A stretch of 64,000 nucleotides of DNA from the NCBI RefSeq assembly GCF_001612745.1, contig NZ_BDBA01000004.1, positions 62,001 through 126,000 of the forward strand, read 5' to 3'. Below are positions 11,438-54,466 of the stretch, in pieces. The stretch's first letter is position 1. Every line of letters starts with the position of its first letter. The translations under genes and the position numbers were made by a program. This DNA is from Nocardia amamiensis NBRC 102102. Lineage in GTDB: Bacteria; Actinomycetota; Actinomycetes; Mycobacteriales; Mycobacteriaceae. The notes beneath the pieces are model-generated. The model was not told the DNA's origin and ran no database searches. It was given only the letters and a program-made list of their open reading frames with translations.

Positions 11438-11465
11438 GATAAAGGACACAGTGTGACCGTTATCA
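11437..11465 (-). promoter_or_regulatory. shared 29-bp operator, site A (Tat-protein remnant)
   Basis: This is the most symmetric copy: reading the minus strand, arms TGATAACGGTCACA and TGTGTCCTTTATCA around a central C pair at 12 of 14 positions. The core is GGTCACACTGTGTCC. TTGAC begins 13 bases upstream of the palindrome (11478), the same offset as in sites B, C and D. An ATG follows directly at its downstream end. Confidence 0.75.
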
Positions 11466-32157: not shown

Positions 32158-32300
32158 CCCACTGCCGCGGGGCTGTGTGCGCCATCGAGGGGCGGTCCCG
32201 CGATGCGGCCGAGCGGGGGCGGCCCCGAGCTGGATTCGTGTAGAGATAGTGTTCTACCTGGTAGTTCTTTCGGATACATCGTAGCCGAAGAGTCTCGGCA

Positions 32301-32329
32301 AAATAACGGCAACAATGTTGCTGAAACCT
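32301..32329 (+). promoter_or_regulatory. shared 29-bp operator, upstream site D' of the TetR-mce operon
   Basis: The left arm AAATAACGGCAACA matches the consensus well and the right arm starts TGTTGC but then decays (GAAACCT). Its centre (32315) is exactly 43 bp from the centre of site D (32358). Confidence 0.6.
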
Positions 32330-32343: not shown

Positions 32344-32372
32344 TGATAGCGGTCACACTGTATCCATTATGA
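32344..32372 (+). promoter_or_regulatory. shared 29-bp operator, site D covering the TetR-mce start codon
   Basis: Arms TGATAGCGGTCACA and TGTATCCATTATGA flank a central C; core GGTCACACTGTATCC. TTGAC begins 13 bases upstream (32331). The start codon ATG of the TetR gene (32369) lies inside the right arm, so the transcript is probably leaderless or nearly so, and a bound repressor would cover the transcription start. Confidence 0.75.
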
Positions 32373-37932: not shown

Positions 37933-39035
37933 TGCGCCAATTTCTTGCTTCCCGCGGATTCATGTCGGTTTCGGCCGTCTTGGTCATCGTCGTGCTCGCG
38001 GCCGCCGGGTACGTCGTGCTCACCGGCGCCGACAAGCCGATGCGCTCGTACTGCGCGATGATGCCGGACGCGGCGGGGCTCTACCTGGGCAGCCATGTCA
38101 CCATGCTCGGCATCCCGGTCGGCTCGGTGACCCGGATCGAACCGTCCGGTGACGGGGTGCGGGTCGACTTCCGAGTCGAGTCCGATCACCCGCTGCGCGG
38201 CGACGTTTCAGCGGTGACCCTGTCCGACACCTTGGTCGCCGACCGTAACCTCGCGATGCTGTCGGCACCTGAACCCGCGCCGAAGTGGGACTCCGGTCGA
38301 TGCATCACCCGCGCACTCACTCCGAAGAGCATGACCCAGACGCTGGAGGCCCTGTCGAAACTCGCGACCGAGATGAGCGCTCCGGACGACCCGGCCCGAC
38401 AGGGCACGGTCAGCGGCGGTGTTTCGGCCCTGGATACCGCCGTGTCGGGCACCGGCCCCGCACTCAACGAGTTGCTGTTCACGCTCGGTGACGCACTGAA
38501 ATCACCGGACGCCGCGATCGGACGCATCGGCGAACTGATCGATGCGATCAACACACTCGCCGCGGCGATGAAGAACAACTGGGGCGATCTCGAACATATG
38601 CTCACCCGCTTGGCCGGCATGTTGGACCAAGCCAACAATGAGGTCATCGCGCCGTTCGTCGGGATCATCGACGCGCTGCGGGTACTGCTGCCCTGGTTCA
38701 ACGACATCACCACGAAATTCGGTCGGCCGCTGCTGAACCTCGTGCGGGCGAGCGTGCCGATGGTCCGCTGGGTCGGCGCGAATGTCGGCACACTCGAGCA
38801 GTTGGTCGGCATGATTCCGACGCTGACCGACGCCTTCCGACGCTCGGTCGATCCCGGCACTGGACGGGTCGCACTCGCCTACGCTGCCCCCAAAGTGGCT
38901 CTCGCCCAACCGGATGCCGATCAGCTGTGTGCGGCGATCAACGTCGCTGTTCCCGGCCGGTGTCGCAGCGCCGAGCACGGTTTGGCCGATGTTGATCTGG
39001 TTTCGCTGGTACTGGCCATCGCGGGAACGAAATGA
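37932..39035 (+). CDS. mceD: Mce protein, MceD position
   Basis: ATG 37932 overlaps the mceC stop by one base. The 367-residue protein has an anchor at about 10-30 (FMSVSAVLVIVVLAAAGYVV), an MCE domain (DAAGLYLGSHVTMLGIPVGS, LVADRNLAM) and a long helical region (LMTRLAGMLDQANNEV-like heptads). The MCE domain begins with the Y-L-G-S variant seen in MceD proteins. It overlaps mceE by 4 bases. Confidence 0.9.
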   Translation: MRQFLASRGFMSVSAVLVIVVLAAAGYVVLTGADKPMRSYCAMMPDAAGLYLGSHVTMLGIPVGSVTRIEPSGDGVRVDFRVESDHPLRGDVSAVTLSDTLVADRNLAMLSAPEPAPKWDSGRCITRALTPKSMTQTLEALSKLATEMSAPDDPARQGTVSGGVSALDTAVSGTGPALNELLFTLGDALKSPDAAIGRIGELIDAINTLAAAMKNNWGDLEHMLTRLAGMLDQANNEVIAPFVGIIDALRVLLPWFNDITTKFGRPLLNLVRASVPMVRWVGANVGTLEQLVGMIPTLTDAFRRSVDPGTGRVALAYAAPKVALAQPDADQLCAAINVAVPGRCRSAEHGLADVDLVSLVLAIAGTK

Positions 39036-40132
39036 GGACCGGGTTGCCGCTGTCGAAAACTTCGCTCTGCAACCGCAGAAGACACTGGGGTGCAATGAAA
39101 CTCACGACGAAGCTGCTCGCGTTCGCGGTGACGGGATGCACGCTGGGAGGCTGCGCACTCGATCCGTCGGCCATTACGGTCCCGGGCATGGGCCGTGGCG
39201 ACGGTTACCGGGTGCATGTCGAGTTCGCCAACGCGCTCAACCTGCCGGGGCGGGCGAAGGTGATGGCCAACGGTGTACAGGTCGGTGACCTCGCGAAAGT
39301 GCGCGTAGTGGATCCCGCGGCCACCGCCGCAGGCCATGTGATCGCGGATATCGACATCGATCGCGCGGTGAAACTGCCCACCGCCACCACCGCACAACTG
39401 CGGCAGAACACCCTGTTGGGTGATGTTTTCATCGAGTTGACCACACCGCCGAACGGATTCGACAAAACCATCGCCGACGGCGGCACCATCCCGATCGCAC
39501 AGACGAAACCAGCCGTACAGGTGGAAGACGTCATGGCCGGCCTCGCGGCATTCGTTCAGGGCGGTGCGGTGCAGCAGTTCCAGGACCTGGTGAATCGCAT
39601 GAATGCGGTATTGCCCGAACAGCCTGCCGACAGCGCGCATATCGCGCAGGTGATCGGCGCGGACTTCACTGATGTCGCACGGCATCTCGGCGAGGTCGAC
39701 AACTTCCTCGACGGTATGGAAGCCAATGTGGCCATGGTGCTCGACCGCGATCGAGCATTGAGCGGGCTGCTGAATGAGCAGGGCGCCACGCATGTCACCT
39801 CGGCGTTGAAATCCCTGATCCTCGTGCTCGGGCTGTCCGGTGCGATGGGCGACATCGCCCACGCCTTGACCTGGATGACGCCGCTGGTGACGGCGGGCGA
39901 CGCCGCGGCGAAAGCTTTTGTGCCGTTGTTGTTCACCGATCGGCCACTGGACCTGAACGCGCCATCGAACCTCAACCGACTCGTGTCACTGCTTCGGGAC
40001 CAGATCATTCCGTTCATCGAGCACGGGCCCAAAGTGGACATCACCGGTGTCGACACCGGAAATGGAGTCCCCGCGCAGGAACAAACCAGTCGGATCATCG
40101 ATACCTTACGCATGATCGGAGCAGTGCGTTGA
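39032..40132 (+). CDS. mceE: Mce protein, MceE position, lipoprotein
   Basis: The frame begins at ATG 39032 (overlap ATGA with mceD); ATG 39095 is the alternative and gives a compact lipoprotein signal MKLTTKLLAFAVTGCTLGGC, with the lipid-bearing cysteine in LGGC. MceE proteins (LprK type) are lipoproteins, so 39095 may be the true start. The MCE domain has ANALNLPGRAKVMANGVQVG and QNTLLGDVFIELTTP. Total 366 residues from the first start. The lipid anchor helps hold the Mce hexamer in the envelope. Confidence 0.9.
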   Translation: MRTGLPLSKTSLCNRRRHWGAMKLTTKLLAFAVTGCTLGGCALDPSAITVPGMGRGDGYRVHVEFANALNLPGRAKVMANGVQVGDLAKVRVVDPAATAAGHVIADIDIDRAVKLPTATTAQLRQNTLLGDVFIELTTPPNGFDKTIADGGTIPIAQTKPAVQVEDVMAGLAAFVQGGAVQQFQDLVNRMNAVLPEQPADSAHIAQVIGADFTDVARHLGEVDNFLDGMEANVAMVLDRDRALSGLLNEQGATHVTSALKSLILVLGLSGAMGDIAHALTWMTPLVTAGDAAAKAFVPLLFTDRPLDLNAPSNLNRLVSLLRDQIIPFIEHGPKVDITGVDTGNGVPAQEQTSRIIDTLRMIGAVR

Positions 40133-41097
40133 AATCACGAATCCTCGGTCCCGCACTGTCATTGAGCAGCATCGCCGCGGTAGCACTGCTCGCTCTCGCC
40201 TACCTCACCTTCGGCGTTGTCGGCGTCGACTGGTTTACCAGCTATGACAAACTGACGATGACACTGACCAATTCGGGCAGCCTCGGTCCGCAATCACCGG
40301 TATTGCTGTCCGGGGTTCGCGTGGGGAAGGTCGTGTCCGTGCGCAACGGCGACGGCGGCGTCCAGGTCAGTATGCGAGTCCGCGACGATTACCACATCCC
40401 GGTGGCAAGCACGGTCAGCATCGAAAACCTCTCCGCGCTCGGCGAACCACAGGTCCAATTCACGCCCGTAAAGGACGCGGCCGCCCCGTATCTGCGCGAC
40501 GGACAACACATCGACACTCGGGCCATCCGGACGCCGACCTCGATACCCGAGGTGGCCCGGCAGGTGACCCATCTGATGGAACAGCTGGACCCGCAGGCGA
40601 TCGGTGACATCGTCGATACCTTCACCCGAGGACTGGCGGGCACCGAAGTGATCGTGCCGCAGCTGGCTCGATCCACCAGCCTGCTCGCCGCCACCCTGCT
40701 GTCCCGCACCGACGCCATACACAGCATGCTCATCGACCTGCAGGCGTTGGGCGCGGATATGGATTGGACCGGCCCGGCGATGAGCGCTGCCGCACCGGGC
40801 TGGAACCAGGTCGGAACATCGGCGGACAACCTCGCGCAATCCATCGAGAGACTCGTCCGGATCGGACGGATGCCGGACATGTATGTCCAAGACACCGGCC
40901 TCATCCCGTTCTCCGCCGAATTGACCGACTACCTCGAGCAGATGGGTCCCGACATGGCGAAGCTGGTGCCGGTGCTCACTCCATTGACCACGCATGCCGC
41001 CGGGCAGCTGAGTCGCGTCGACCTCAGCGCGCTGATTTCGCAAGCACTCGCCGAAACCGGGGACGGCGCCTTGCGTTTGCAGATCAACGTCAAATAA
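40129..41097 (+). CDS. mceF: Mce protein, MceF position
   Basis: This starts with TTG 40129 overlapping the mceE stop. The 322-residue protein has an anchor at about 10-33 (LSLSSIAAVALLALAYLTFG), an MCE domain (NSGSLGPQSPVLLSGVRVGK, ENLSALGEPQVQFTP) and a helical tail. It is shorter than mycobacterial MceF (about 500 residues) because the usual long C-terminal extension is missing. It completes the set of six MCE subunits. Confidence 0.88.
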   Translation: MKSRILGPALSLSSIAAVALLALAYLTFGVVGVDWFTSYDKLTMTLTNSGSLGPQSPVLLSGVRVGKVVSVRNGDGGVQVSMRVRDDYHIPVASTVSIENLSALGEPQVQFTPVKDAAAPYLRDGQHIDTRAIRTPTSIPEVARQVTHLMEQLDPQAIGDIVDTFTRGLAGTEVIVPQLARSTSLLAATLLSRTDAIHSMLIDLQALGADMDWTGPAMSAAAPGWNQVGTSADNLAQSIERLVRIGRMPDMYVQDTGLIPFSAELTDYLEQMGPDMAKLVPVLTPLTTHAAGQLSRVDLSALISQALAETGDGALRLQINVK

Positions 41098-41135
41098 CCG
41101 GCGAACAGATCGAAAACAACACCCAAGGAGCACAC

Positions 41136-41753
41136 ATGACCATCGATGTCAACGAACGAATCGACGAAGAAACGACAACTGACCGACCGGCACGGGCTGA
41201 GGACAACTCCGTAGCGACCGGGCGCGCATCGGGGACGGTGTCGATACGACTGTCCGCCATCGCACTCGGAGCCGCGATCATCGCTCTGGTGGCGGCAACG
41301 GGCGTATTCGCCGCGCTGTGGCTTTCGGCTCGTAGTGATCTCAGCGACCGCGACGCCGCCGCCGCCGCCGACCGCCGTGCCGAGCAAGTCGCCACGGATT
41401 ACGCGGTCGGCGCCTCCACCATCAACTTCCAGGACTACAACGCGTGGATCGCCAAGCTCAAGGCGAATACCAGCCCTCAGTTGGCGAATAAATTCGATGC
41501 CACCGCACCGAAACTGCAGGAAATTTTGGTGCCGTTGAAATGGTCCTCGACCGCAACACCGGTCAGCGCCGTGGTCACCTCGGAGACCGGCGGCGTATAC
41601 AAGGTGAACGTCTTCCTGAATGTCAACTCCACCAACGCCCAGACTCCCGACGGAGGCCAAACGACGGTGACGTACAACGTCACCGTCGATTCGGGTGCGG
41701 GATGGAAAATTACCGATGTCGGCGGTATGGACGGCGCCCTACCGCTGAAATGA
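41136..41753 (+). CDS. Mce-associated membrane protein
   Basis: ATG 41136 has AAGGAG 6 bases upstream. The 205-residue protein has a cytoplasmic acidic N-terminus, one membrane helix (about 38-62, LSAIALGAAIIALVAATGVF), then a coiled segment (RDAAAAADRRAEQVATDYAV) and a SnoaL/NTF2-like external domain. Mas proteins close most mce operons and stabilise the transporter. It ends 2 bases from the convergent NmrA gene, so the two transcripts meet with no room for a terminator between stops. Confidence 0.85.
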   Translation: MTIDVNERIDEETTTDRPARAEDNSVATGRASGTVSIRLSAIALGAAIIALVAATGVFAALWLSARSDLSDRDAAAAADRRAEQVATDYAVGASTINFQDYNAWIAKLKANTSPQLANKFDATAPKLQEILVPLKWSSTATPVSAVVTSETGGVYKVNVFLNVNSTNAQTPDGGQTTVTYNVTVDSGAGWKITDVGGMDGALPLK

Positions 41754-42730: not shown

Positions 42731-43162
42731 TCAGGCGACGAGCCCCTGAGCCTTTTTCAGCGATTTGTCCAGGGCGCCGACGAGCGAGTTCTTGAAGACC
42801 CCGCCCATGGGGCCGTCGATCATCCCGCCGTCGATACTGGCTGTTACCTCGACCGTGGTGGTCTCGGCCTCCCCTCGCAGGCTGAGGGCGAGTGCCAGTT
42901 TGACGCCTGCCCTTGTGGTTCCGCCCATGGCGAGCGAGTGCGGCGCGTCGACATTCTCGAAAGTCCAGTCGATGGTGACCGGCATGTTCATCACGCTCGC
43001 GCTTGCGGTAGCGGTGTCGCCACTGGTGAGCTGGGCTGGGACGGCGCTCTTCCACGATTTGTGAATCACAAGCCAATCGCCCCAGCGTGCCGGATCGCCG
43101 AGGACCTTCCAGACCTCGTCGGGACTGGCCTTGTAGCTGGCGCTGGTTTGCACGGTACGCAT
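42731..43162 (-). CDS. SRPBCC (START/Bet v1-like) family protein
   Basis: ATG 43162 has AGGAG 6 bases upstream. The 143-residue protein (MRTVQTSASYKASPDEVWKV) has the polyketide-cyclase/dehydrase-type helix-grip pattern: a first strand and short helix (SPDEVWKVLGDPARWGDW), curved sheets and a long C-terminal helix (GGVFKNSLVGALDKSLKKAQ). It should bind a hydrophobic ligand in its cavity. A perfect 27-bp palindrome with the shared operator core lies 71 bases upstream, so it probably belongs to the regulon. Confidence 0.82.
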   Translation of the reverse strand: MRTVQTSASYKASPDEVWKVLGDPARWGDWLVIHKSWKSAVPAQLTSGDTATASASVMNMPVTIDWTFENVDAPHSLAMGGTTRAGVKLALALSLRGEAETTTVEVTASIDGGMIDGPMGGVFKNSLVGALDKSLKKAQGLVA

Positions 43163-43233: not shown

Positions 43234-43260
43234 TAATTCGGATACAGTGTATCCGAATTA
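43234..43260 (-). promoter_or_regulatory. perfect 27-bp palindrome with the shared operator core, site G (SRPBCC gene)
   Basis: TAATTCGGATACA and TGTATCCGAATTA flank a central base with no mismatch. The core GGATACAGTGTATCC fits GGNNACANTGTNNCC, but the outer arms (TAATTC) differ from the other sites, and there is no TTGAC at the 13-base offset. It may bind the same regulator or a close relative such as the TetR at 43305. Confidence 0.8.
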
Positions 43261-43304: not shown

Positions 43305-44048
43305 TCAGGTGGGGTCCACCCCGTCGGCCGCCGCGTCGTGCAGTGGCACGAGGCCCGCGACGAGCAGTTGCAGGCCGAAGCGGAATTCGTTTTCCAGGGT
43401 TTGCCTCGGCAGGCAATCGGCGACGGCGATCGTGGCGGGGAATCGCGCGGGATCGAGTTGGCGGTAGAGCGCGGTGAGTGGGGTGGGGTCGATGTTGGCT
43501 TCGGTGTCGTGGCCTTGGAGCTGGGCGGCGAAGCCGATGGCATAGCGGGCAATGGTGGCGTAGACGAGTGCCGCGGACTCCGGGGGGAAGCCGTTGGCGA
43601 GCAGCAGGGCCAGGACTCGCTCGCGCAACATGAGCGAATTGGGTCCGATCGGCACCTGCTCGATGAGCAGGTGCGCGATCCCGCGGTGGCGGTTCAGGAC
43701 CGCGAAGATGGCCTCCGCGGCGGTGACGCATGCGCGCTGCCAGTCGTCATCGGGCGCGTTGTCGTCGATTTCGATCTCGCCGAGGGCCGAGTCGACCACG
43801 TGGGCGATGAGTTCGGCACGGTTGGCGACTGCTCGGTAGAGCACGGCGGTGCCTGTTTCGAGGCGTTGGGCGAGTGTGCGCATCGACAGTGCGTCGGCGC
43901 CTTCCTCGTCGATGATGCGCAGTGCGGTCCTCACGATCCGGTCGAAGGGGACCCGTGGGCGGCCGGGGGAGCGGCGAGCCGGGGTCTCGGCGGCGTCTGA
44001 ATCGGCGGTGGTCACACTCGCATTGTTGCGCATCGACGGTCTGGACAC
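43305..44048 (-). CDS. TetR family regulator, divergent from the hydrolase operon
   Basis: GTG 44048 or ATG 44033 starts the protein (247 or 242 residues). A disordered N-terminus leads to RRSPGRPRVPFDRIVRTALR and an HTH (SMRTLAQRLETGTAVLYRAV), with the tetracycline-repressor-like C-terminal fold (TetR_C class). It is divergent from the alpha/beta hydrolase operon. A 22-bp palindrome (GTGATCACTAT/ATAGTGGTCAC, 44049-44070) abuts its start and overlaps shared site C'. It could be the binder of this palindrome, of site G, or of the whole shared set. Confidence 0.85.
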   Translation of the reverse strand: MSRPSMRNNASVTTADSDAAETPARRSPGRPRVPFDRIVRTALRIIDEEGADALSMRTLAQRLETGTAVLYRAVANRAELIAHVVDSALGEIEIDDNAPDDDWQRACVTAAEAIFAVLNRHRGIAHLLIEQVPIGPNSLMLRERVLALLLANGFPPESAALVYATIARYAIGFAAQLQGHDTEANIDPTPLTALYRQLDPARFPATIAVADCLPRQTLENEFRFGLQLLVAGLVPLHDAAADGVDPT

Positions 44049-44070
44049 GTGATCACTATATAGTGGTCAC
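44049..44070. promoter_or_regulatory. 22-bp palindrome at the start of the divergent TetR gene
   Basis: GTGATCACTAT and ATAGTGGTCAC pair at 10 of 11 positions. It abuts the GTG start of the TetR gene and overlaps site C' by 13 bases, so binding of one regulator here could interfere with binding at C'. Confidence 0.65.
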
Positions 44071-44086
44071 ATTGTTGCCATTATCA
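44058..44086 (+). promoter_or_regulatory. shared 29-bp operator, upstream site C' of the hydrolase operon
   Basis: ATATAGTGGTCACA and TGTTGCCATTATCA flank a central T; core GGTCACATTGTTGCC. Its centre (44072) is exactly 43 bp from the centre of site C (44115). It also lies just upstream of the divergent TetR gene. Confidence 0.72.
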
Positions 44087-44100: not shown

Positions 44101-44129
44101 ATGTACCGGCAACACTGTAACCATTATGA
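44101..44129 (+). promoter_or_regulatory. shared 29-bp operator, site C covering the hydrolase start codon
   Basis: ATGTACCGGCAACA and TGTAACCATTATGA flank a central C; core GGCAACACTGTAACC. TTGAC begins 13 bases upstream (44088). The hydrolase ATG (44126) lies in the right arm exactly as in site D, with no separate ribosome site. Confidence 0.75.
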
Positions 44130-44980
44130 GTAGACGAGCAGCCGCCGATGATTACATCGACCCTGATTCGCGCTTCGCGATCGCCGAGGGCCGTAACCTC
44201 CACTACAAGCGGGCCGGGACGGGGGCTGCGGTGTTGCTTCTGCATGGCAGCGGCTCCTCGCTGCACTGCTTCGACGAGGTGGCCGCGGCGTTGTCGTCGT
44301 CGTTCGATGTGATTCGCCCGGATCTGCCCGGCTTCGGGCTCACGGGTCGGCGCGCCGACCGGGACTACCGGATACCGGCCTACGCCGAGACGGTCGCCGC
44401 GTTCTTGGACGCCATCGGGGTCTCCAAGGCGTCGGTGGTCGGCAATTCGCTCGGTGGCAATATCGCCTGGAACTTCGCGCTGGATCATCCGCAGCGGGTG
44501 GAGCGGCTGGTGTTGATCAATGCCACCGGTTACCCGGGCAAGTCGTTGCCGTTGGCGCTGCGCCTGGCGCGTAACCCGATCGGTCGGGTGTTGATGCGGA
44601 ATTTGGCGTCTCGCTCGGCCACCGAACGGAATCTGCGCTCGGCGGTCGGGTCGCGCAAGTCGGTGGTGGATGACGCGATGGTCGACCGGGTGCACGCGAT
44701 GCTGAACCGGCCCGGCAACCAAGAGGCGTTCATCGACTTCGCCAACACCGACCAGATCGACCGCACCGCTGAGATTCCCGCCATCACAGCGCCGACGCTG
44801 GTGCTGCGCAGCGCGTCGGTCGACGGACAGTTTTTCACGCGCGATATCCCGGGCAGCCTCGAACGGATTCATCCCAGCGGTGGCCACCTGCTCCCCGACG
44901 AAGATCCGGAATGGGTGGCCAGCGCGCTACTGAACTTTTTGACGACCGAGGCGAACTCGCCGAAGAAGGGAAAGTCATGA
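44126..44980 (+). CDS. alpha/beta hydrolase, MhpC-like
   Basis: This 284-residue protein starts at ATG 44126 inside operator C (MSRRAAADDYIDPDSRFAIA). It has the oxyanion-hole motif LLLHGSGSSLHCF, the nucleophile elbow VVGNSLGGNIAWN, and the late histidine in RIHPSGGHLLPDEDP. It fits the meta-cleavage-product hydrolase or esterase group. The first about 18 residues resemble the start of the mce-operon TetR (32369). The next gene, also a hydrolase, overlaps by 4 bases. Confidence 0.88.
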   Translation: MSRRAAADDYIDPDSRFAIAEGRNLHYKRAGTGAAVLLLHGSGSSLHCFDEVAAALSSSFDVIRPDLPGFGLTGRRADRDYRIPAYAETVAAFLDAIGVSKASVVGNSLGGNIAWNFALDHPQRVERLVLINATGYPGKSLPLALRLARNPIGRVLMRNLASRSATERNLRSAVGSRKSVVDDAMVDRVHAMLNRPGNQEAFIDFANTDQIDRTAEIPAITAPTLVLRSASVDGQFFTRDIPGSLERIHPSGGHLLPDEDPEWVASALLNFLTTEANSPKKGKS

Positions 44981-45873
44981 AGTATTTCGTGGTGCCCGGC
45001 GAAACCCGTCAGCTGGACCAGGCCACACGTGCCGAACTGCGTGGTGACTTCATCGAATGCGGCGACGGGATCACGCATTACGAGATGGCCGGGCCCGACG
45101 GCGGAGAGGTCGTCGTGTTCGCGGGTAGCCTGACCACCCCGCTGTTCTACTGGGATCAACTCGCCGGCGAGCTGCATTCGCGCGGATTCCGCACCGTTGC
45201 CTACAGTCCGTACGGACGCGGCTATTCCGATCGCGTACGGGCCACCTACGATGAGGCCCTGTTCGTGCGGCAAATCGTCGACTTGACTCAGCGTCTGGAT
45301 CTGGCCGAACCTTTCCACCTCGTCGGAGCTTCGATGGGTGCGTTGGTGGCTATGGCTTTCGCTCAACGCCACACCGACCGCATCGCCACCTTCACCTTGG
45401 CCGGTCCCGCGGGCCTGCAGCCCACGCCCGCCTTCGCCCGCTTGCTGCGTCAGGAGATGTTGGGCACCTTTCTGGCGAAGAAGCTGGGCAGCAAAATGCT
45501 CGACCGGCACCTGTCCCACAATGTCCGGGATCCGCAGCAGTCCGCGGCGCTCACGGCGATGGTGCGCGAGTGCTACCAGTTCGAGGGCTCGATCTACGCC
45601 TTGGCCGCCACGATCGCCGACTTCCCGCTGGGTGGCCGTCAGGACCTCTACCGGCGAACCGGGACACTGCCGTTTCCGAAGATGTTGCTGTGGGGCGACG
45701 AAGATCAAGTGACCCCGATCACGAGCTTCGATGAGGTGTCCGCATTGTTCGCGCCGGCCGAAGCGCACATTGTCTCGCCGTGCGGGCACATGGTCCCTTA
45801 CGAGGAGCCCGCCCGGATGAGTCTGCTTTTCACCGCATTTGCCGAAGCTGCCAGGAAAGGGTCGTCACGATGA
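44977..45873 (+). CDS. alpha/beta hydrolase
   Basis: ATG 44977 overlaps the previous stop (ATGA). The 298-residue protein has VVVFAGSLTTPLFYWDQLAG (oxyanion region without the usual HG), the elbow LVGASMGALVAMAF, the acid in LLWGDEDQVTP and the histidine in VSPCGHMVPYEEP. It differs enough from its neighbour to be a separate function, not a recent copy. It overlaps the FAD monooxygenase gene by 4 bases, so all three are translated together. Confidence 0.88.
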   Translation: MKYFVVPGETRQLDQATRAELRGDFIECGDGITHYEMAGPDGGEVVVFAGSLTTPLFYWDQLAGELHSRGFRTVAYSPYGRGYSDRVRATYDEALFVRQIVDLTQRLDLAEPFHLVGASMGALVAMAFAQRHTDRIATFTLAGPAGLQPTPAFARLLRQEMLGTFLAKKLGSKMLDRHLSHNVRDPQQSAALTAMVRECYQFEGSIYALAATIADFPLGGRQDLYRRTGTLPFPKMLLWGDEDQVTPITSFDEVSALFAPAEAHIVSPCGHMVPYEEPARMSLLFTAFAEAARKGSSR

Positions 45874-47456
45874 ATACAGAGTCGAGCACTCGACTGATCG
45901 ACGTTCTGGTCGTCGGCGGTGGGCCGACCGGCACCGCCTTGGCGATCGATCTGACCCGCCGCGGACTGGCGGTGCGGATCATCGACAAAGCCGCGAGGTC
46001 TTTCGATGGTTCGCGCGCCAAGGGAGTCCAGCCGCGCAGTCTGGAAGTGCTCGAGGACCTGGGCGTCCTCGACGATATCCGCGCCGGCGGAGCCGAGTAC
46101 CCGCTGTTGGGCATTCATGCGGGTCCGCTGACGATTCCGTGGCATATGATCTCCCGCAACGAGCTGACATCCGATGTGCCACACCCGAATACGTGGTTGA
46201 TTCCGCAGTTCCGCACCGATGCCGCGCTGCGCGCCGGACTGCAGCGGCTGGGCGTGTCGGTCGAATCGAAACGCGAATTGGTCGGATTCGAGCAATTCCG
46301 GGATGCGGTCGTGGCGACGGTCGCCGGCGGCGACGGTGTCGAAGAGATCGGCGCTCGCTACCTTGTCGGCGCGGATGGTGGGGCGAGCACGGTCCGCAAA
46401 ACAGCGGACATCGGCTTCGAAGGCAAGACCGACGAAGCCGATCGAATGATCATCGTCGACGCCATGGTGGACGGTCTTTCCCGGAATCGCTGGCACGTAT
46501 GGCCGCGTCCGGGCGGCCGGTTCGTCGGTGCGTGCCCGCTACCGCACTCCGATCTCTTTCAGGTGATGATCCGCCTGCAACCCGGTGAGGAGCCCGCTCT
46601 CGACGAGGACAGCCTGAACGCGCGCATCCGCAAACAGACCGGCGACGACCGCCTGCGCTTGTCGAACATCGGCTGGACATCGGTATTCCGCCCCAACATT
46701 CGCCTGGCGGAACGGTACCGGGCAGGGCGGGTATTCATCGCCGGTGACGCCGCTCATGTCCATCCCCCCGCGGGCGCGCAAGGACTCAATACCGGTTTGC
46801 AGGATGCCTACAACCTGGGCTGGAAACTGGGCCAGGTGCTCGCGGGTGCGCCGGACAGTCTGCTCGACACCTACGAGGCCGAGCGGCAGCCGATCGCGGC
46901 CGGGGTTTTGGGGTTGGCGACCAAGAAGTACGAGGGCTTGGCCAAACTCGACCCGTCGTCGATCAAGCGCGGCGATGACGAACGCCAGCTCGGCCTGCAC
47001 TACCGCGGCGGCCCGCTGGTCACGGCCGATGCCGAACAAACCGGAACGCTGCGAGTCGGCGACCGCGCACCGGACGCGAAACTGCTGAACGCGGCCGGGG
47101 GAGCGCAGCGCCTGTTCGACCTCTTTTCCGGACCGCATTTCACCGCCATCGGCTACGGCCGCGCGGCCGCCGAGGAACTGGCCGCATTGACGTGGCCGTC
47201 GGCGGGCGCGGGACTGAAAAAGGTCGCCATCAATGGCGGTGAGCAGGTGGACGCCGATGTCGTGCTCGTCGACATCACCGAGTCCTTCGCCCAGATCTAC
47301 GGCGTGGCCGACACCGCACTCCTGTTGATCCGCCCCGACGGCTACATCGGCTCCATCGCCACCACCGACATGGCTCGGGCAACCCTGGCACACGCCACCG
47401 CGATGACCCCAGCCGTCGATGCCCCCGCCGTACCCAATGTCGGGGGAAAAGGGTGA
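45870..47456 (+). CDS. FAD-dependent aromatic monooxygenase, PheA/TfdB/MhpA type
   Basis: ATG 45870 overlaps the previous stop. The 528-residue protein has the complete FAD set: VLVVGGGPTGTALAIDLTRR, YLVGADGGASTVRK and VFIAGDAAHVHPPAGAQGLN, and a C-terminal thioredoxin-like domain (VGDRAPDAKLLNAAGG ... LLLIRPDGYIG). It should hydroxylate a phenolic or related ring using NAD(P)H and oxygen. With two hydrolases it forms an operon that could hydroxylate and then open and cut a ring product. Confidence 0.9.
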   Translation: MNTESSTRLIDVLVVGGGPTGTALAIDLTRRGLAVRIIDKAARSFDGSRAKGVQPRSLEVLEDLGVLDDIRAGGAEYPLLGIHAGPLTIPWHMISRNELTSDVPHPNTWLIPQFRTDAALRAGLQRLGVSVESKRELVGFEQFRDAVVATVAGGDGVEEIGARYLVGADGGASTVRKTADIGFEGKTDEADRMIIVDAMVDGLSRNRWHVWPRPGGRFVGACPLPHSDLFQVMIRLQPGEEPALDEDSLNARIRKQTGDDRLRLSNIGWTSVFRPNIRLAERYRAGRVFIAGDAAHVHPPAGAQGLNTGLQDAYNLGWKLGQVLAGAPDSLLDTYEAERQPIAAGVLGLATKKYEGLAKLDPSSIKRGDDERQLGLHYRGGPLVTADAEQTGTLRVGDRAPDAKLLNAAGGAQRLFDLFSGPHFTAIGYGRAAAEELAALTWPSAGAGLKKVAINGGEQVDADVVLVDITESFAQIYGVADTALLLIRPDGYIGSIATTDMARATLAHATAMTPAVDAPAVPNVGGKG

Positions 47457-48852: not shown

Positions 48853-50175
48853 TCAATTGACGAGGGCGTCCCAGCCGATGATGCGCCAACCAGAGCCCGA
48901 GATGTCATCGAGGCGGTGCTCCGCGCCGCAGAACGTCCGCACGATCGGCTGCGGAAATAAGCGGCCAACCGGCGAGCGCAGCGATGGTGGTGCCAAAAGC
49001 AAGCCGCGTCGGTACCGCGCTGGCGGGCGCCAGCGGCCTTGGCGAACGCGTTCCCGTAATGGCGGGACACGCAGGAGCGTCTCGCCCACCCCGTCGCGAA
49101 TCGCCGCCGCCCACCGCGATTGCATGGTGACCAGATGGCCGACCCGGACCGACAGCTTGGTTATCGCGTCGGCGTGCGGACGCCGCTCGGCCTCGTAGGA
49201 GTCGAGGATCCGCAGTGGCGCACCGGCGTTCACCACGGCAGCGATTTTCCAGCTGAGGTTAGTGACATCCCGGATTCCCGAGTTCAGACCCTGACCGATC
49301 ATGGGAGGCATCAGGTGGGCGGCGTCGCCGCACAGCAACACCCTCCCGACCCGCCAATGCTCGGCGCTCTTGGCTCGGAAGGTGTAGATGAGATGACGCA
49401 GGATCTCCGCGGTGTCGGGGTCCGCATCCTCAGCGATCACTCGCCGCGCGGCTCGTGGTGTCAGGATTTCTTCTTGGTCCTCCCACGGCATCACCTTGCG
49501 TTCCCAGCGGTGCCCACCAGCGGCGAGCCGTCCGGTCAGGCGGGGTGCCGCCGGGTCCAGCGTCATCTGAAAATACGGGAGATGTGTGACCGGCTCCGGT
49601 AGCTTCGCGTCGACGATGAGCCACGTGTCGGTGTATGCGGATCCGGCGAGCTCGACGCCGATCGCTGCCCGGGTCGTACTGTTTGCGCCATCGCAGCCGA
49701 CAACGAAGCGTGCGCGCGCGTTACCGGTCCCGCCGTCGGCATCACAAAACGTGAGTTCGACGCCTTCGTCGTCCTGGGTCAACCCGGTGAGCCGGTGACC
49801 CAGGCGGATATCGACGTCCGGGTACTCCGCAATGGCCGCCCGAAGTTGCTTATCCAGCAACGGCTGGTAGATCGCCGATATCCACGGATGCCCTTGGATT
49901 TGCTCCGTCGGCAGCGTCGTCGCGACAACCTTGCCGCCAGCCGACACCCACTGGGCTCCGGCCCCGAGGAGCATGTCGGGAACGGCGCGCTCGTACACTC
50001 CCGCTTTCTGCAGCGTGCGCAGCGCTTCTCCATCGAGAACGCCGACGCGCGGGTTGGGGTATACGTCGCTCTCGCGCTCGAGTACCAGTACCGTCAACCC
50101 CGCACGCGCCAGCAGCAGCGCCGCCAGCTCACCGACCGGACCCAGGCCGATCACGGCAACGTCGAACGTGGTCAT
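48853..50175 (-). CDS. FAD-dependent aromatic monooxygenase, MhpA type, short C-terminus
   Basis: ATG 50175 overlaps the amidohydrolase stop (ATGA). The 440-residue protein has VAVIGLGPVGELAALLLARA, FVVGCDGANSTTR and VLLCGDAAHLMPPMIGQGLN, typical of MhpA-like hydroxylases. It stops at ISGSGWRIIGWDALVN, just where relatives of about 510-540 residues begin their C-terminal thioredoxin-like domain. So about 80 residues seem lost, although the FAD and substrate domains are complete. It may still work, or be in early decay. Confidence 0.85.
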   Translation of the reverse strand: MTTFDVAVIGLGPVGELAALLLARAGLTVLVLERESDVYPNPRVGVLDGEALRTLQKAGVYERAVPDMLLGAGAQWVSAGGKVVATTLPTEQIQGHPWISAIYQPLLDKQLRAAIAEYPDVDIRLGHRLTGLTQDDEGVELTFCDADGGTGNARARFVVGCDGANSTTRAAIGVELAGSAYTDTWLIVDAKLPEPVTHLPYFQMTLDPAAPRLTGRLAAGGHRWERKVMPWEDQEEILTPRAARRVIAEDADPDTAEILRHLIYTFRAKSAEHWRVGRVLLCGDAAHLMPPMIGQGLNSGIRDVTNLSWKIAAVVNAGAPLRILDSYEAERRPHADAITKLSVRVGHLVTMQSRWAAAIRDGVGETLLRVPPLRERVRQGRWRPPARYRRGLLLAPPSLRSPVGRLFPQPIVRTFCGAEHRLDDISGSGWRIIGWDALVN

Positions 50176-51518
50176 GACAGGTGTCGGCAACCCGTGAAAA
50201 GGATGTCGGTAGCTCGCGAACGACTCACGAGGCCAACCGCCGATCGTTCGAGGTGCTGCAGTACCGATTCGACGTCCACGCCGAGCAGTCGGCCATCGCG
50301 CTTGACGATTCGTCCATCCACGATCACGGTGTCGACGTTGCTGGTGTCCATGTGCTGCACCACGGCGCCCGCCGCATGATTGACCGGTCCGGCGTTGAGT
50401 GTGCGTGCGTTCAACGCGATGACGTCCGCCCGTTTGCCCGGGGTGAGAGACCCGACGAGATGGTCGAGATGAGCCCCTTGGGCTCCGCCGAGCGTTGCCA
50501 TTCGGAGTATGTCCCGCACCGTGACCGGCTGAACGTCGGGTGAGTTGCTCTGCATCGCCGCCTGGATGCGGCTGCGCTGCCAGTGGTAGGCCGCGCGCAT
50601 CTGGGAGAAGAAGTCGACGGGTGCGATGCCGACGGTGTCCGTGCCGAAACTTGTCGGGATGCCATGTTCGAGGGCCGTTTGCAAGGCCGGCTGGCCCATG
50701 GCGAGCGATTGCTCTGCGCTGGTGGAGACCGATACCTTGCCGCCGGTTCGTTCGATGGCTCGCCATGCGGCGTCTTCGAGACCGAGGCAGTGGATGTAGG
50801 TGATCCAGGGGCCGAGCAGTCCCTCCTTCTCGAACTGCTCGAGTACATGACCCCAGCTGGTGTCATTGACATGCGCGAACATCGGCAGACCGAGGTCTCG
50901 GGCAAGCTCGAACAAGTCCTCATCGACGTGATAGCCGAGGGCCAGGCGGACGAGCGTTCCCTCCTCGACCGGACCGGCGTTCTCGATGAGGCGACGGATG
51001 TCTTCTGGATGGGCATACGACGGGTCCGGCTCGTGATCGCCGAGTGAGGGCGAGAAGCTGAAGACGCATCGGATTCCGGATCGGCGGATTCCTTCGAGCG
51101 CGGCGTCGGTGTGTTCGGGGGTATACGAGCATTGCGATGTGTCGACGACGGTCGTGGTTCCCGCGGCCAGGTTCTCCAGTGCCCCACCGAATTGGCCCCA
51201 GTAGACGTCCTCGGGGGTGTACTGGTGGAACAGCGCGTCGGCTCCAGCCCGCGATTGCATGAAGTAGTCCAGGTCGAGGGCATCGGCCCAGTACGAGCGC
51301 AAAGCGGTCTGGAACATGTGGTGATGCGAGTTCACGAAACCGGGAAGGACGATCTTGCCCGCGCAGTCGAGCACCTGCGCATCGGCGGTCAGGTCCTGCC
51401 CCACCTCGACGATCCTGCCGTCCTCGATGAGCACATCGCCGCGTTCGTGATCACCCAGCTCTTCGTCCATCGTCAGGACGATCCCGCCGCGCAGCAGCAA
51501 GCGACCTGCGGAATTCAT
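50172..51518 (-). CDS. amidohydrolase, ATZ/TRZ-type deaminase or chlorohydrolase
   Basis: ATG 51518 has GGAGG 5 bases upstream. The 448-residue protein has LPGFVNSHHHMFQTALR (metal HxH), IHCLGLEDAAW, SFGTDTVGIAP (metal aspartate) and the C-terminal LTPGKRADVIALN. It fits the group with 8-oxoguanine, cytosine and S-adenosylhomocysteine deaminases and atrazine hydrolases. Its start overlaps the stop of a 17-codon frame that begins in operator B. With the FAD monooxygenase it may act on an amino- or N-heteroaromatic compound. Confidence 0.87.
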   Translation of the reverse strand: MNSAGRLLLRGGIVLTMDEELGDHERGDVLIEDGRIVEVGQDLTADAQVLDCAGKIVLPGFVNSHHHMFQTALRSYWADALDLDYFMQSRAGADALFHQYTPEDVYWGQFGGALENLAAGTTTVVDTSQCSYTPEHTDAALEGIRRSGIRCVFSFSPSLGDHEPDPSYAHPEDIRRLIENAGPVEEGTLVRLALGYHVDEDLFELARDLGLPMFAHVNDTSWGHVLEQFEKEGLLGPWITYIHCLGLEDAAWRAIERTGGKVSVSTSAEQSLAMGQPALQTALEHGIPTSFGTDTVGIAPVDFFSQMRAAYHWQRSRIQAAMQSNSPDVQPVTVRDILRMATLGGAQGAHLDHLVGSLTPGKRADVIALNARTLNAGPVNHAAGAVVQHMDTSNVDTVIVDGRIVKRDGRLLGVDVESVLQHLERSAVGLVSRSRATDILFTGCRHLS

Positions 51519-51568
51519 GACCGCCTCCAATCGGACACACAACGTGGGTTGCAAAGCGCCTTTGCCAT
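51515..51568 (-). CDS. 17-codon leader frame starting in the shared operator
   Basis: The ATG in the right arm of operator B, at the same place where sites C and D start full genes, opens MAKALCNPRCVSDWRRS, which ends on the amidohydrolase start (TCATGA). There is no ribosome site, so it would be leaderless. It may couple translation to the next gene, or reflect a promoter cassette placed in front of an unrelated gene. Confidence 0.35.
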   Translation of the reverse strand: MAKALCNPRCVSDWRRS

Positions 51569-51593
51569 AATGGGAACAGTGTTGCCGTTATCA
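51565..51593 (-). promoter_or_regulatory. shared 29-bp operator, site B (amidohydrolase operon)
   Basis: Minus strand arms TGATAACGGCAACA and TGTTCCCATTATGG around a central C; core GGCAACACTGTTCCC. TTGAC begins 13 bases upstream (51606). The TTGACACCGA-N-CATGATAACGG stretch is nearly identical to site A. No second site is seen 43 bp upstream. Confidence 0.75.
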
Positions 51594-51751: not shown

Positions 51752-53023
51752 CTACTGGGCTGCGGCACCACTGCAGGTGAGGGCGGGGGCCGAAGCTGGT
51801 CCGGGATCCGACGTTGCAGCGCGAACGGTGCCGAGCAATGACACCGTGGCCACGGCGCCGAGGATTGCTCCGAAGACGATGCCGATGTGGGAAAGGTTCC
51901 AGTGCTGGGCGGCCAACCCCACGCCCAAGGCGGGAACGGAGATCGCGAAATAGGCCACGACGAAATAGGTGGAGGCGATTTCGCCGCGCTGCGATGGCGG
52001 AGCCGCTTCCACTACCGCGCCCAGTCCCTTGCTGAAGCTCGTGCCCTGTCCGACGCCGGCGATCACCGCGGCCGCGATGAGGATCGGCACCGACCGGGCG
52101 CTGAGCGCCGCGCCGACAAGTGCGGCGCTGAGTATCAGCGCTGTACAACCGAGGATCATGGCGTTGGGAACGGGCAGCGCCCTGGTGAGGACTTGGGCAG
52201 CCGCGGAGGCGGCGAACGTCGAGGAAACCAGCAACCCGGCAATAGCCTGGTTGTGAACGTGCAGAGATTGATTCAGAAACGTCGGCACCACCGACGCGAA
52301 CAGGCCGATCACGCAGAACCCGGCGAACGCCGCCGTCGCCGCACGAATGAACACCTGCCGTGCCTCCGGCGGAATCGACAGCCGCTGCACGGTCGGCCGA
52401 GACCGAGGCTGTGCCGCAACGGTCTCATTCGTCTGCCGGATTGCGAGTACAGCCAAGCCGACCATCGCCAAGTGTACGGCGAAAACGCATCGCAGCGGCC
52501 ATGGGCCGTATTGGATGAGCGCACCCGACAGCGTCGGCCCAATACCCAATCCGCCGATGTTCGCGACACCGGCGACCACGTGGGCTCGGGTTTTCCACCT
52601 CGCGGGTGCGGCTTCGACGATCATGGCGGTCGCGGTACCGGTGAAGATACCGGCCGACAGTCCCGACAGCGCCCGCCCGAGCAGCAACTGCCACACCGAT
52701 CCCGCGGTAAGGAACACCAGCGAACTGGCTGCGGAAAACGCCAGTCCGGCGATGAGCAGTGGTCGACGTCCGAGCACGTCCGACCACCGGCCGAACAGAA
52801 TCAGTGCCGCGACGACCCCGGCGGCGTACATCGCGAAAATCGCCGTGGACATGCTGATGGAGAATCCGAGCTCGGCGGCGTACGAGGTGTACATCGGCGT
52901 CGGCATCGTCGTACCGAGCATGACAACCGCGAAGGCGTAACCAACCCGCACCATCGACCTATCGCGCCGACCGCGCGCGCCTGTGAGGCGCAAATCTGAC
53001 TTGACCGCTAATCGAGTCTCCAT
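51752..53023 (-). CDS. MFS transporter, 12-helix type
   Basis: ATG 53023 (METRLAVKSDLRLTGARGRR) lies in a degenerate copy of the shared operator, at the standard place; GTG 53041 is an alternative. The 423-residue protein has 12 helices, with FGRWSDVLGRRPLLIAGLAF (motif A) and SGLSAGIFTGTATAMIVEAA. It fits the sugar/aromatic-acid or drug group. Its promoter carries two operator copies 43 bp apart, so it is probably the small-molecule transporter of the regulon. A 230-bp gap separates it from the amidohydrolase promoter. Confidence 0.85.
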   Translation of the reverse strand: METRLAVKSDLRLTGARGRRDRSMVRVGYAFAVVMLGTTMPTPMYTSYAAELGFSISMSTAIFAMYAAGVVAALILFGRWSDVLGRRPLLIAGLAFSAASSLVFLTAGSVWQLLLGRALSGLSAGIFTGTATAMIVEAAPARWKTRAHVVAGVANIGGLGIGPTLSGALIQYGPWPLRCVFAVHLAMVGLAVLAIRQTNETVAAQPRSRPTVQRLSIPPEARQVFIRAATAAFAGFCVIGLFASVVPTFLNQSLHVHNQAIAGLLVSSTFAASAAAQVLTRALPVPNAMILGCTALILSAALVGAALSARSVPILIAAAVIAGVGQGTSFSKGLGAVVEAAPPSQRGEIASTYFVVAYFAISVPALGVGLAAQHWNLSHIGIVFGAILGAVATVSLLGTVRAATSDPGPASAPALTCSGAAAQ

Positions 53024-53048
53024 AATGGCACCAGCGTCCACGCTATCG
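53020..53048 (-). promoter_or_regulatory. shared 29-bp operator, degenerate site F covering the MFS start codon
   Basis: Minus strand CGATAGCGTGGACG and TGGTGCCATTATGG; 20 of 29 positions match site B, with the right arm kept and the core weak. TGGACA begins 13 bases upstream in place of TTGACA, and ATG 53023 is in the standard position. Confidence 0.55.
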
Positions 53049-53062: not shown

Positions 53063-53091
53063 CTATATCGGCAACGATGTGTCCGATATTA
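53063..53091 (-). promoter_or_regulatory. shared operator, upstream site F' of the MFS gene
   Basis: ATATCGG and CCGATAT arms enclose CAACGATGTGT; core GGACACATCGTTGCC on the minus strand differs from GGNNACANTGTNNCC at one base. Its centre (53077) is exactly 43 bp upstream of the centre of site F (53034), the same spacing as in the mce and hydrolase promoters. Confidence 0.62.
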
Positions 53092-53365
53092 CTCGGAGCG
53101 GTATCGAAGCGGTCGACGCAGATCGGTGCCAACCGGAATTTGCGCCGGACCTGAGCTCGAGCAGGATTTCACAGCCAAGCTCTCCCGTCCCCAGGCGAGC
53201 CGCGCCGACGCTTCGTAAGCGGTGACCCACGCGACGGACGTCACGAGCATCTATAGGTGTTGCCTATGCGTGTCTCGCGCTTCTGGTCTTGGACTTGCCG
53301 ACGACGGGGCCCACACAATCGAGGACAACCGGTTTTCTGCTCGAATTTCAACTGAAAGGTTGCAG
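53092..53365. other. divergent gap between MFS and dehydrogenase genes
   Basis: Apart from the operator copies on its left, the gap holds an inverted repeat at 53253-53267 and a GAAAGG ribosome site 6 bases before the dehydrogenase start. An open frame reaches back to 53222 but its translation before MPSETMLAAV is not protein-like. Confidence 0.5.
53253..53267 (+). promoter_or_regulatory. LysR-type box before the dehydrogenase operon
   Basis: ATAGGTGTTGCCTAT is an inverted repeat of 5-base arms with the T-N11-A form that LysR regulators recognise. It is about 100 bases upstream of the dehydrogenase-DUF3500-aldolase operon, whose next gene downstream is a LysR gene (56524). Confidence 0.5.
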
Positions 53366-54466
53366 ATGCCCTCTGAGACAATGTTGGCTGCCGTGCTCGG
53401 CGAGCCCGGGACGATCGCAACCACGCGGTTGCCTGTGCCCGAGGTAGGACCGGACGACGTCCTGGTCCAGGTCCGCCGGGCATCGCTGTGTGGTTCGGAC
53501 CTCAAGATTCGAAGTCGGAAGTTCTTCGCCGGTGACGGACCGCCTCCGGGAACCTTTGTCCCCGGGCACGAGTACGCGGGTGTGGTGGCTGCGGTGGGGA
53601 GCAGCGTCGACGAGTTTTCGGTTGGTGACCGGGTCGTGACCGAGGCGCATCGCGGCTGTATGCGATGCGTCAACTGTCTCTCGGGTTCCTATACCGATTG
53701 CCTGAACTCCGGCAAGCGGGACAAAGGGCATCGGTCACAGGGAATGACGGTCAACGGCGGGTTCGCCGAATATGTGGTCAATCATGTGTCCACCCTGCAT
53801 CGGCTGCCGGATTCCGTTGATTTCGATGCGGCGGTAATTCTCACCACTGTCGGCTCGGTTATGCACGCCTTCGATGTCCTCGGCTCCCTCGTCGTCGGCG
53901 CGAGTGTCGCCGTGATCGGCCCCGGGCCCATCGGGCTGCTGGCGGTTCAGGTCGCCCGCCAACTCGGAGCCGACCCGGTGGCTCTGGTGGGTACCAGGTC
54001 GAGCCGGTTGGCACTCGGCAAGCAGTTCGGCGCCGACATGGTGCTCAACTCGCGCGAGGTGGACGCCGTCGCCGCGGTACGCGATCTCACCGGTGGGCGC
54101 GGCGCCGATATCGTCCTCGAGTGCTCGGGCGCCGCGCCCGCTGTCGATCAGGCGATCCATATGGCCAAGCGGTCCGGCAAAGTCGTGCTCGTGGGATTTT
54201 TCGAGCAGCCGGTGCTGGCCGACCTCAACCATGCCGTCATGAACGGAATCTCATTGCAGACCGTTCGTGGCGAAGGAACGGGCTCTGTCGCACGAGCCGT
54301 TTCCCTGGCAAGCCAGGGAAGACTGAACACCGACGCACTCGTGACACACCATTTCGCACTCGGCGACATCGGAGAAGCGTTCGACACCTACGCCGAACGC
54401 AGAGGCGATGCCATCAAGGTGATGCTCGATGTGTCCGACGATGGGGAACCGATCCATGGTCGGTAG
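53366..54466 (+). CDS. zinc-binding alcohol dehydrogenase (MDR family)
   Basis: ATG 53366 has GAAAGG 6 bases upstream. The 366-residue protein has ASLCGSDLKIR and PGHEYAGVVAAVGSSVDEF (catalytic zinc ligands C and HE), the structural zinc lobe GCMRCVNCLSGSYTDC and the NAD(P) motif VAVIGPGPIGLLAVQVA. It should oxidise an alcohol or polyol, or reduce the carbonyl. It starts a three-gene operon with DUF3500 and an HpcH/HpaI aldolase, and its stop overlaps the next start region by 11 bases. Confidence 0.88.
   Translation: MPSETMLAAVLGEPGTIATTRLPVPEVGPDDVLVQVRRASLCGSDLKIRSRKFFAGDGPPPGTFVPGHEYAGVVAAVGSSVDEFSVGDRVVTEAHRGCMRCVNCLSGSYTDCLNSGKRDKGHRSQGMTVNGGFAEYVVNHVSTLHRLPDSVDFDAAVILTTVGSVMHAFDVLGSLVVGASVAVIGPGPIGLLAVQVARQLGADPVALVGTRSSRLALGKQFGADMVLNSREVDAVAAVRDLTGGRGADIVLECSGAAPAVDQAIHMAKRSGKVVLVGFFEQPVLADLNHAVMNGISLQTVRGEGTGSVARAVSLASQGRLNTDALVTHHFALGDIGEAFDTYAERRGDAIKVMLDVSDDGEPIHGR

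Follow-up and report, generated by a model that had tools for sequence, protein, structure and literature searches.

A palindrome common to a hydrolase–monooxygenase operon and an mce operon points to a putative aromatic-compound catabolic regulon in Nocardia

We analysed a 64,000-nucleotide stretch of the genome of Nocardia amamiensis NBRC 102102 (hereafter the window) and propose that three overlapping genes within it, Hyd1, Hyd2 and FMO1 (44126–47456), are probably the enzymatic core of a TetR-controlled regulon for the catabolism of an aromatic compound. The proposal builds on gene families, on palindromes that recur at several promoters, on a conserved neighbourhood and on co-occurrence across Nocardia genomes. 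The same palindromes precede an operon for an Mce import system, and a TetR gene divergent from Hyd1, TetR3, is most likely the gene for their repressor, ahead of the TetR gene that opens the mce operon (TetR_OP).

Results

The Hyd1–Hyd2–FMO1 operon

43305–44048, minus strand: TetR3, divergent TetR protein and proposed repressor (TetR_C_1, PF02909, 2.2e-19)
44065–44079, no strand: putative operator O1 of the Hyd1 operon (GGTCACATTGTTGCC)
44108–44122, no strand: putative operator O2 of the Hyd1 operon (GGCAACACTGTAACC; 3 bases before the ATG)
44126–44980, plus strand: Hyd1, alpha/beta hydrolase (Pfam PF00561 Abhydrolase_1, 4.6e-26)
44977–45873, plus strand: Hyd2, second alpha/beta hydrolase (Pfam PF00561 Abhydrolase_1, 1.4e-18)
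45870–47456, plus strand: FMO1, FAD monooxygenase of NCBIfam PRK06184 (PF01494 FAD_binding_3, 5.4e-80)

The operon runs from the Hyd1 ATG at 44126 to the end of the FMO1 stop codon at 47456, with 4-base overlaps at two ATGA junctions (Hyd1/Hyd2, 44977–44980; Hyd2/FMO1, 45870–45873). A first-pass annotation of this DNA had placed three such genes here and read them as two different alpha/beta hydrolases and a flavin hydroxylase; its coordinates are exact, and the Pfam families (Abhydrolase_1 twice and FAD_binding_3) bear out the assignment. Overlaps of 4 bases are by themselves an ordinary feature of bacteria.

FMO1 scores 634.7 bits against PRK06184, an NCBIfam entry labelled 'hypothetical protein', which is above the curated cut-off of 476. 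Both hydrolases stay under every NCBIfam cut-off (best 25 of 35 families for Hyd1; all 20 for Hyd2): Hyd1 reaches 88.2 bits against HsaD and 76.4 bits against BphD, with equivalog cut-offs of 400 and 462.15, and neither Hyd1 (79.3 bits) nor Hyd2 (83.3 bits) attains the 255.85 set for the 3-oxoadipate enol-lactonase PcaD. The hallmark GNSxGG serine and catalytic histidine of HsaD and BphD are present in Hyd1, where the nucleophile motif is GNSLGG and S108 and H254 are invariant in 13 aligned rows; D233 and D240, both candidates for the acid, are equally invariant. In Hyd2, S119, D243 and H271 are invariant in 14 aligned rows. Both proteins are taken to be active hydrolases with a serine nucleophile and, because such a nucleophile speaks against epoxide hydrolase or dehalogenase chemistry in this family, these two activities are disfavoured. 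A Hyd1 model (pLDDT 74.1) was compared with the PDB and, among the best 50 matches, esterases, C–C hydrolases, epoxide hydrolases and dehalogenases rank alike; the fold search therefore picks no reaction. Ester removal and C–C cleavage are both possible for Hyd1, whose likeness to the ring-product hydrolases is only distant, far below the HsaD and BphD cut-offs. The first-pass annotation had envisaged ester removal, hydroxylation and ring-product cleavage, of which the last is weakened by the same low scores. In quinolone-degrading gene sets one alpha/beta hydrolase is a cofactor-free dioxygenase of the Hod/AqdC type. Such a role for Hyd1 or Hyd2 is not favoured; no solved relative of Hyd2 (all 50) bears the name Hod or AqdC, and neither does any of the best 60 of 249 for Hyd1.

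Palindromes at the Hyd1 promoter

The Hyd1 and mce promoters have in common tandem 15-bp palindromes of the type GGCAACA-N-TGTTGCC, two at each promoter with a spacing of 43 bp. A tandem operator common to the two operons had been suggested earlier and holds up: with up to 3 mismatches, the pattern CACTGTAWCCATTATGAGTRGACGAGC, which was derived from these very two promoter sites, has two matches in the window, one upstream of Hyd1 and the other upstream of TetR_OP, against a mean of 0.00 matches in 100 shuffles.

We compared the Hyd1 locus of the window with 19 loci from relatives, which makes 20 loci from 19 genomes. In 20/20 loci O2 has at most 2 mismatches to the consensus, and 3 bases separate its end from the start codon, the Hyd1 start being placed 15 bases upstream of the match in two of them (L129 and L133). 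TTGAC lies upstream of O2 in every locus and, on the strength of this conservation, is a candidate promoter element. A second palindrome (up to 4 mismatches) is found 42–44 bp upstream in 15 of the 20 loci; the other five (L126, L129, L023, L131 and L133) have the five lowest Hyd1 identities. A palindrome over the promoter and start codon would suit repression.

The likeness of the DNA upstream of Hyd1 and of TetR_OP extends from the promoter to about codon 17, and the strongest stretch shared by the two genes occurs in just these two places in the window. The two proteins belong to different families and have similar N-terminal leaders, MSGRATAEGRIDPDS and MSRRAAADDYIDPDS (TetR_OP, 32369–32430; Hyd1, 44126–44190), which would fit a joint duplication of promoter and 5' coding DNA. 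The idea that this leader is an RNA element was rejected: folding at the Hyd1 start is ordinary (z 0.71), and synonymous conservation, at 0.91 for codons 1–15 and 0.93 for codons 46–60, is not confined to the leader. Codons 3–4 of Hyd1 (44132–44137) are AGA CGA in 14/14 sequences compared; AGA is rare, at 6 of 295 arginine codons across 12 genes of the window. At the second Hyd1 locus of one relative (G183; L111, 14046–14720) the TetR_OP frame has an early in-frame stop in its leader.

Palindromes at neighbouring genes and in the genome

41756–42664: NmrA-like gene, after the SRPBCC gene
42731–43162, minus strand: SRPBCC protein (NCBIfam Rv0910 family, 152.7 bits, cut-off 100)
43240–43254, no strand: palindrome upstream of the SRPBCC gene (GGATACAGTGTATCC; score 17.8)
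48853–50199, minus strand, range inferred: FMO2, monooxygenase like 3-(3-hydroxyphenyl)propionate hydroxylase (on the longer open reading frame 48856–50766, PF01494 9.4e-64 and NF004829 400.6 bits, cut-off 390)
50172–51554, minus strand: AmidoH, TRZ/ATZ-type amidohydrolase (PF01979 1.2e-33; PRK08204 397.4 bits, cut-off 391)
51572–51586, no strand: palindrome upstream of AmidoH-FMO2 (score 19.0)
51752–53041, minus strand: MFS transporter (PF07690 2.2e-37)
53070–53084, no strand: palindrome between the MFS and ADH genes (score 16.0)
53372–54466, plus strand, start inferred: zinc alcohol dehydrogenase (ADH; PF00107 and PF08240 on open reading frame 53222–54463)
54477–55637, plus strand, start inferred: DUF3500 protein, candidate ring-cleaving enzyme (PF12006 6.5e-78, open reading frame 54429–55634)
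55647–56438, plus strand: HpcH/HpaI-family aldolase (PF03328 2.4e-37)

A site model trained on such palindromes finds 8 sites scoring at least 16 in the window, of which 4 had served for training; 100 simulated windows gave a mean of 0.07 and a maximum of 1. The sites at 43240, 51572 and 53070 lie outside the training set, and similar palindromes before the SRPBCC, AmidoH-FMO2 and MFS genes therefore look like the mark of one regulon. Among the loci checked, window included, a site scoring at least 14 lies within 400 bases upstream of AmidoH in 8/10 and of the MFS gene in 6/7. Across 45 stretches (850,376 bases) the model finds 101 sites at a score of at least 16 and 153 at 11 or more, and the reversed sequence yields 3 and 33. 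A looser pattern, composed after the sites had been seen, matches the whole genome 8 times, with 6 of the matches in the window (0.8% of the genome), and its backward control 4 times. Outside the window, the match on contig C41 is beside TetR3-like and FAD oxygenase-like genes, whereas the 3 kb locus of the match on contig C138 shows neither kind of gene. A common palindrome across genes of the window is well supported by sequence, and these palindromes would be bound by a regulator.

The SRPBCC gene is classed by NCBIfam as an Rv0910-family toxin; a metabolic role is possible for its product because of the palindrome upstream and the NmrA-like gene that follows. A further palindrome at 11444–11458 (score 16.7) fits no recognised gene start.

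The mce operon

32272–32286, no strand: third palindrome upstream of the mce operon (score 16.4)
32308–32322, no strand: putative operator O1 of the mce operon (score 20.5)
32351–32365, no strand: putative operator O2 of the mce operon (score 18.3)
32369–33070, plus strand: TetR_OP, first gene of the mce operon (TetR_N 2.4e-09, TetR_C_40 3.3e-06)
33077–33934, plus strand: YrbEA permease (PF02405 MlaE, 5.2e-60)
33937–34800, plus strand: YrbEB permease (PF02405 MlaE, 8.2e-60)
34815–41097, plus strand: MceA–F, six substrate-binding subunits (PF02470 MlaD in MceA and MceE, the two on which Pfam was run; the rest by order and synteny)
41133–41753, plus strand: Mce-associated protein, named by position and synteny (no Pfam family above cut-off)

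Two MlaE permeases followed by MlaD-domain proteins (MceA and MceE tested) identify an Mce import system. Its first gene, previously read as YrbE, encodes a TetR protein. Mce importers are known for sterols, and the Mce4 sterol importer comes with sterol catabolic genes and KstR control; we know of no substrate for most Mce importers.

Hyd1 (E <= 1e-60) is present in 19 of the 150 Nocardia genomes surveyed. Among the carriers are Nocardia vinacea (two copies), pneumoniae, kruczakiae, concava, asiatica, araoensis, arthritidis, niwae, anaemiae, amikacinitolerans, gamkensis and beijingensis; the search for named carriers returned 20 loci, 14 with at least 54% identity and 6 with at most 29%. TetR_OP (E <= 1e-35) occurs in 12/150 genomes, all of which have Hyd1; below this threshold, one genome (G005) has fragments of 46–66% and another (G185) a 31% match. 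An MceD search at E <= 1e-90 matched 112 of the 150 genomes, but the mce operon itself, taken as orthologous when MceD identity reaches 79% or more, occurs in only 7, all among the 19 with Hyd1; the other MceD matches among those listed are 42–53% identical, save one of 67% (G133). Fisher p values for association with Hyd1 are 2.9e-13 for TetR_OP and 1.7e-07 for the mce operon, uncorrected for shared ancestry.

All seven orthologous mce operons adjoin Hyd1 and have a palindrome upstream (7/7): three in the window, two each in G183, G045, G121 and G107, and one each in G005 and G039. The last two genomes have no TetR_OP match before mce, and Hyd1 lies directly 3' of mce on the same strand. At the TetR_OP promoters, an upstream palindrome with up to 2 mismatches is found at 43–44 bp in 4 of the 8 examined. 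The genome with the 67% MceD match carries a related mce operon (L139) and has no Hyd1 match; this operon, the sole more distant one examined, has no site upstream of YrbEA in the stretch fetched. MceD at 79% or above is absent from 12 of the 19 Hyd1 genomes. Judged from this distribution, the Mce importer is an optional, co-regulated add-on to the Hyd1 cassette, because 7/19 Hyd1 genomes have the mce operon and all have it beside Hyd1 with a palindrome. The earlier suggestion that the operon acts with the Mce importer is thus borne out as regards co-regulation, but not as a fixed partnership.

TetR3 and the cassette in distant bacteria

Relatives of TetR3, Hyd1, Hyd2 and FMO1 occur together with an amidohydrolase, in varying order, in four distant cassettes, three of them on plasmids of Burkholderia anthina (NZ_CP126319.1), Shinella sumterensis (CP132317.1) and Rhodococcus fascians A21d2 (NZ_CP049749.1) and the fourth in Streptomyces turgidiscabies. 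The plasmid-borne Hyd1, Hyd2 and FMO1 are 48–63% identical to those of the window, and the TetR3 relatives near Hyd1 in all four cassettes are 47–56% identical. Hyd2 precedes Hyd1 in Burkholderia, and the TetR3 relative is downstream in Shinella and Streptomyces. The model trained on Nocardia sites finds a palindrome before Hyd1 in 4/4 distant cassettes, and in 3/3 plasmid records 3 bases separate its end from the Hyd1 ATG as annotated. No TetR_OP match at 1e-8 was found in the stretches fetched for the four cassettes, and the three plasmid records state no function. In N. amamiensis itself, two palindromes stand between the TetR3-like and FAD oxygenase-like genes on contig 41 (G000; L028, 6760–6794).

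DUF3500 as a candidate for ring opening

The first-pass annotation had noted no ring-cleaving dioxygenase in the window and supposed that such a step was encoded elsewhere or was not needed. This is now doubtful: the step need not be elsewhere because the DUF3500 protein encoded in the window is a candidate for it, with a genomic profile that nearly matches that of Hyd1, being found (E <= 1e-60) in 17/150 genomes, which are 17 of the 19 with Hyd1 and 0 of the 131 others (Fisher p 1.6e-20, uncorrected for shared ancestry). In G107, G121 and G136, FMO1 is followed on its own strand by the ADH, DUF3500 and HpcH genes; G185 has this arrangement too, with an amidohydrolase gene in between. In Aspergillus nidulans the DUF3500 protein AN10530 is proposed, in the available text of a review, to open 1,2,3,5-tetrahydroxybenzene as a dioxygenase, with the hydroxylase PhyA acting ahead of it (PMC12388069). 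By analogy, ring opening by DUF3500 may be proposed for Nocardia. A gene table in PMC8416521 gives a DUF3500 gene of Rhodococcus qingshengii RL1 a locus number close to those of a gene like 3-(3-hydroxyphenyl)propionate hydroxylase and an MFS transporter; a bacterial DUF3500 activity is not described in the available parts of either source. A phylum sample gave 28 DUF3500 places outside this genome; of the 20 stretches taken from these, 2 have an FMO2-like gene. A Chitinophagaceae contig (L188) has Hyd2-like (28%) and DUF3500 (29%) genes, a weaker coincidence. The DUF3500 model was unusable (mean pLDDT 42.5). The one solved relative, PDB 9x86 or 'Amc20', matches the profile at 2.4e-58, and none of the literature matches listed for that name looked relevant.

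Discussion

We propose that a TetR repressor, most likely TetR3, binds the 15-bp palindrome that immediately precedes the Hyd1 start codon, together with a second one about 43 bp upstream in most of the Nocardia loci, and that a substrate or intermediate of the pathway would act as inducer and release it. Expression of the core operon would then go together with that of the Mce importer, the amidohydrolase–monooxygenase unit and the MFS unit in genomes that have them. Following uptake by Mce or MFS, Hyd1, Hyd2 or AmidoH may hydrolyse an ester or side chain, FMO1 and FMO2 may hydroxylate the ring and, in Nocardia, DUF3500 would open it; lactone or C–C hydrolysis by Hyd1 or Hyd2 could follow, with ADH and then the HpcH aldolase carrying out the end steps. 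The identity of the repressor, the class of substrate, the order of the reactions and the carriage of the substrate by Mce are all points that we infer from the pattern of genes and sites. A more specific idea, which we offer only tentatively, is that a Nocardia Mce importer has been captured by a TetR3-type repressor and feeds a pathway in which FMO1 and FMO2 produce a polyhydroxylated ring that is opened by DUF3500 in place of a classical dioxygenase.

A number of observations weigh against this proposal. The genome counts and Fisher values ignore shared ancestry, 4 of the 50 training sites of the site model come from the window, and a strict sigma-70 consensus scan found no promoter. The palindrome is missing at AmidoH in two loci (L016 and L115) and at the MFS gene in one (L118), and where ADH and DUF3500 form a separate unit there is no site by the ADH start (L014, L019, L022, L024, L117, L124, L128, L132 and L133). 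The amidohydrolases of the distant cassettes are only 28–33% identical to AmidoH and may belong to another subgroup. Two genomes (G130 and G163) have Hyd1 and no DUF3500 match at E <= 1e-60, DUF3500 is found in 0/4 of the distant cassettes in the stretches fetched, and Hyd1, Hyd2 and FMO1 are found in 0/20 of the DUF3500 stretches from outside this genome, several of which are short contigs. We conclude from these absences that DUF3500 is a Nocardia-specific partner outside the core of the cassette. The link to mce is likewise weakened as a requirement, because 12 of the 19 Hyd1 genomes lack the orthologous MceD and the four distant cassettes have no mce match in the stretches fetched (31 kb for the plasmids).

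One alternative concerns the regulator. TetR_OP could control the palindromes at its own promoter and at Hyd1; sites do lie in its promoter and 12/12 genomes with a TetR_OP match carry Hyd1, but we regard this as unlikely. At the threshold used, TetR_OP is without a match in 7 of the 19 genomes with Hyd1, yet O2 is kept in 20/20 loci, and the pair of sites on contig 41, where a TetR3-like gene adjoins an FAD oxygenase-like one, speaks against TetR_OP as well. TetR3 is the better candidate because the distant cassettes keep a TetR3 relative and the palindrome and have no TetR_OP match. Another possibility is that the genes inactivate a foreign aromatic antibiotic or toxin of the polyketide type, with FMO1 oxidising it, the hydrolases opening it, the MFS protein exporting it and a TetR protein sensing it, the Mce importer being merely co-regulated. 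By sequence, rifampin monooxygenase (4.7e-55) and polyketide oxygenases are among the nearest solved relatives of FMO1, the C-terminal domain of TetR3 is tetracycline-repressor-like and a palindrome lies at the MFS gene. However, FMO1 fits PRK06184 and attains only 238.9 bits of the 800 required by NCBIfam for rifampin monooxygenase, and an importer, an aldolase and an ADH would suit use as food better than defence, which makes inactivation rather unlikely.

A sterol or polycyclic route, with the importer acting like Mce4 and Hyd1 like HsaD, would agree with the known sterol role of Mce importers and with the distant similarity of Hyd1 to HsaD and BphD; mce4 and steroid uptake also appear in papers of the literature retrieved. 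We consider it very unlikely, as Hyd1 has 88.2 of the 400 bits set for HsaD and related cassettes without an mce match exist in another phylum. Nothing was found that pointed to sterols, although no search was aimed at sterol genes.

The regulon proposed around TetR3 can be compared with several known systems. The window's mce operon resembles that of Mce4 in having the YrbEA-YrbEB-MceA–F set beside catabolic genes, and differs in having its palindrome in common with a hydrolase–monooxygenase operon and in occurring in 7/19 Hyd1 genomes. Hyd1 shares with the meta-cleavage hydrolases HsaD, BphD and CumD the fold and the GNSxGG-type serine nucleophile, but it is far below the family cut-offs and its fold is equally close to esterases and epoxide hydrolases. 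The Burkholderia, Shinella and Rhodococcus plasmid cassettes have the TetR gene, two alpha/beta hydrolases, an FAD oxidoreductase/monooxygenase, an amidohydrolase and the position of the palindrome at Hyd1 in common with the window; they differ in gene order, in an amidohydrolase of 28–32% identity and in having no mce or DUF3500 match in 31 kb. As in the fungal pathway, so far as the review describes it (PMC12388069), a hydroxylase would act before a DUF3500 protein proposed as the ring-opener, whereas the system here is bacterial and has two flavin monooxygenases, alpha/beta hydrolases and an HpcH aldolase. Searches on mce with aromatic catabolism and on the cassette found no title on this system among those retrieved; Mce importers are known already, and so are catabolic clusters of this kind; their combination by a shared operator was found nowhere in the literature searched.

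When a shared operator connects an Mce system with a particular set of enzymes, the substrate of that system is narrowed to a testable class, and the link to DUF3500 offers a concrete candidate for an uncharacterised bacterial ring-opening family. If the capture of the importer described above is correct, it would represent a non-sterol class of Mce substrate and a new bacterial ring-cleavage enzyme. The palindrome together with the TetR3-Hyd1-Hyd2-FMO1 cassette may serve as a marker for related pathways in other phyla.

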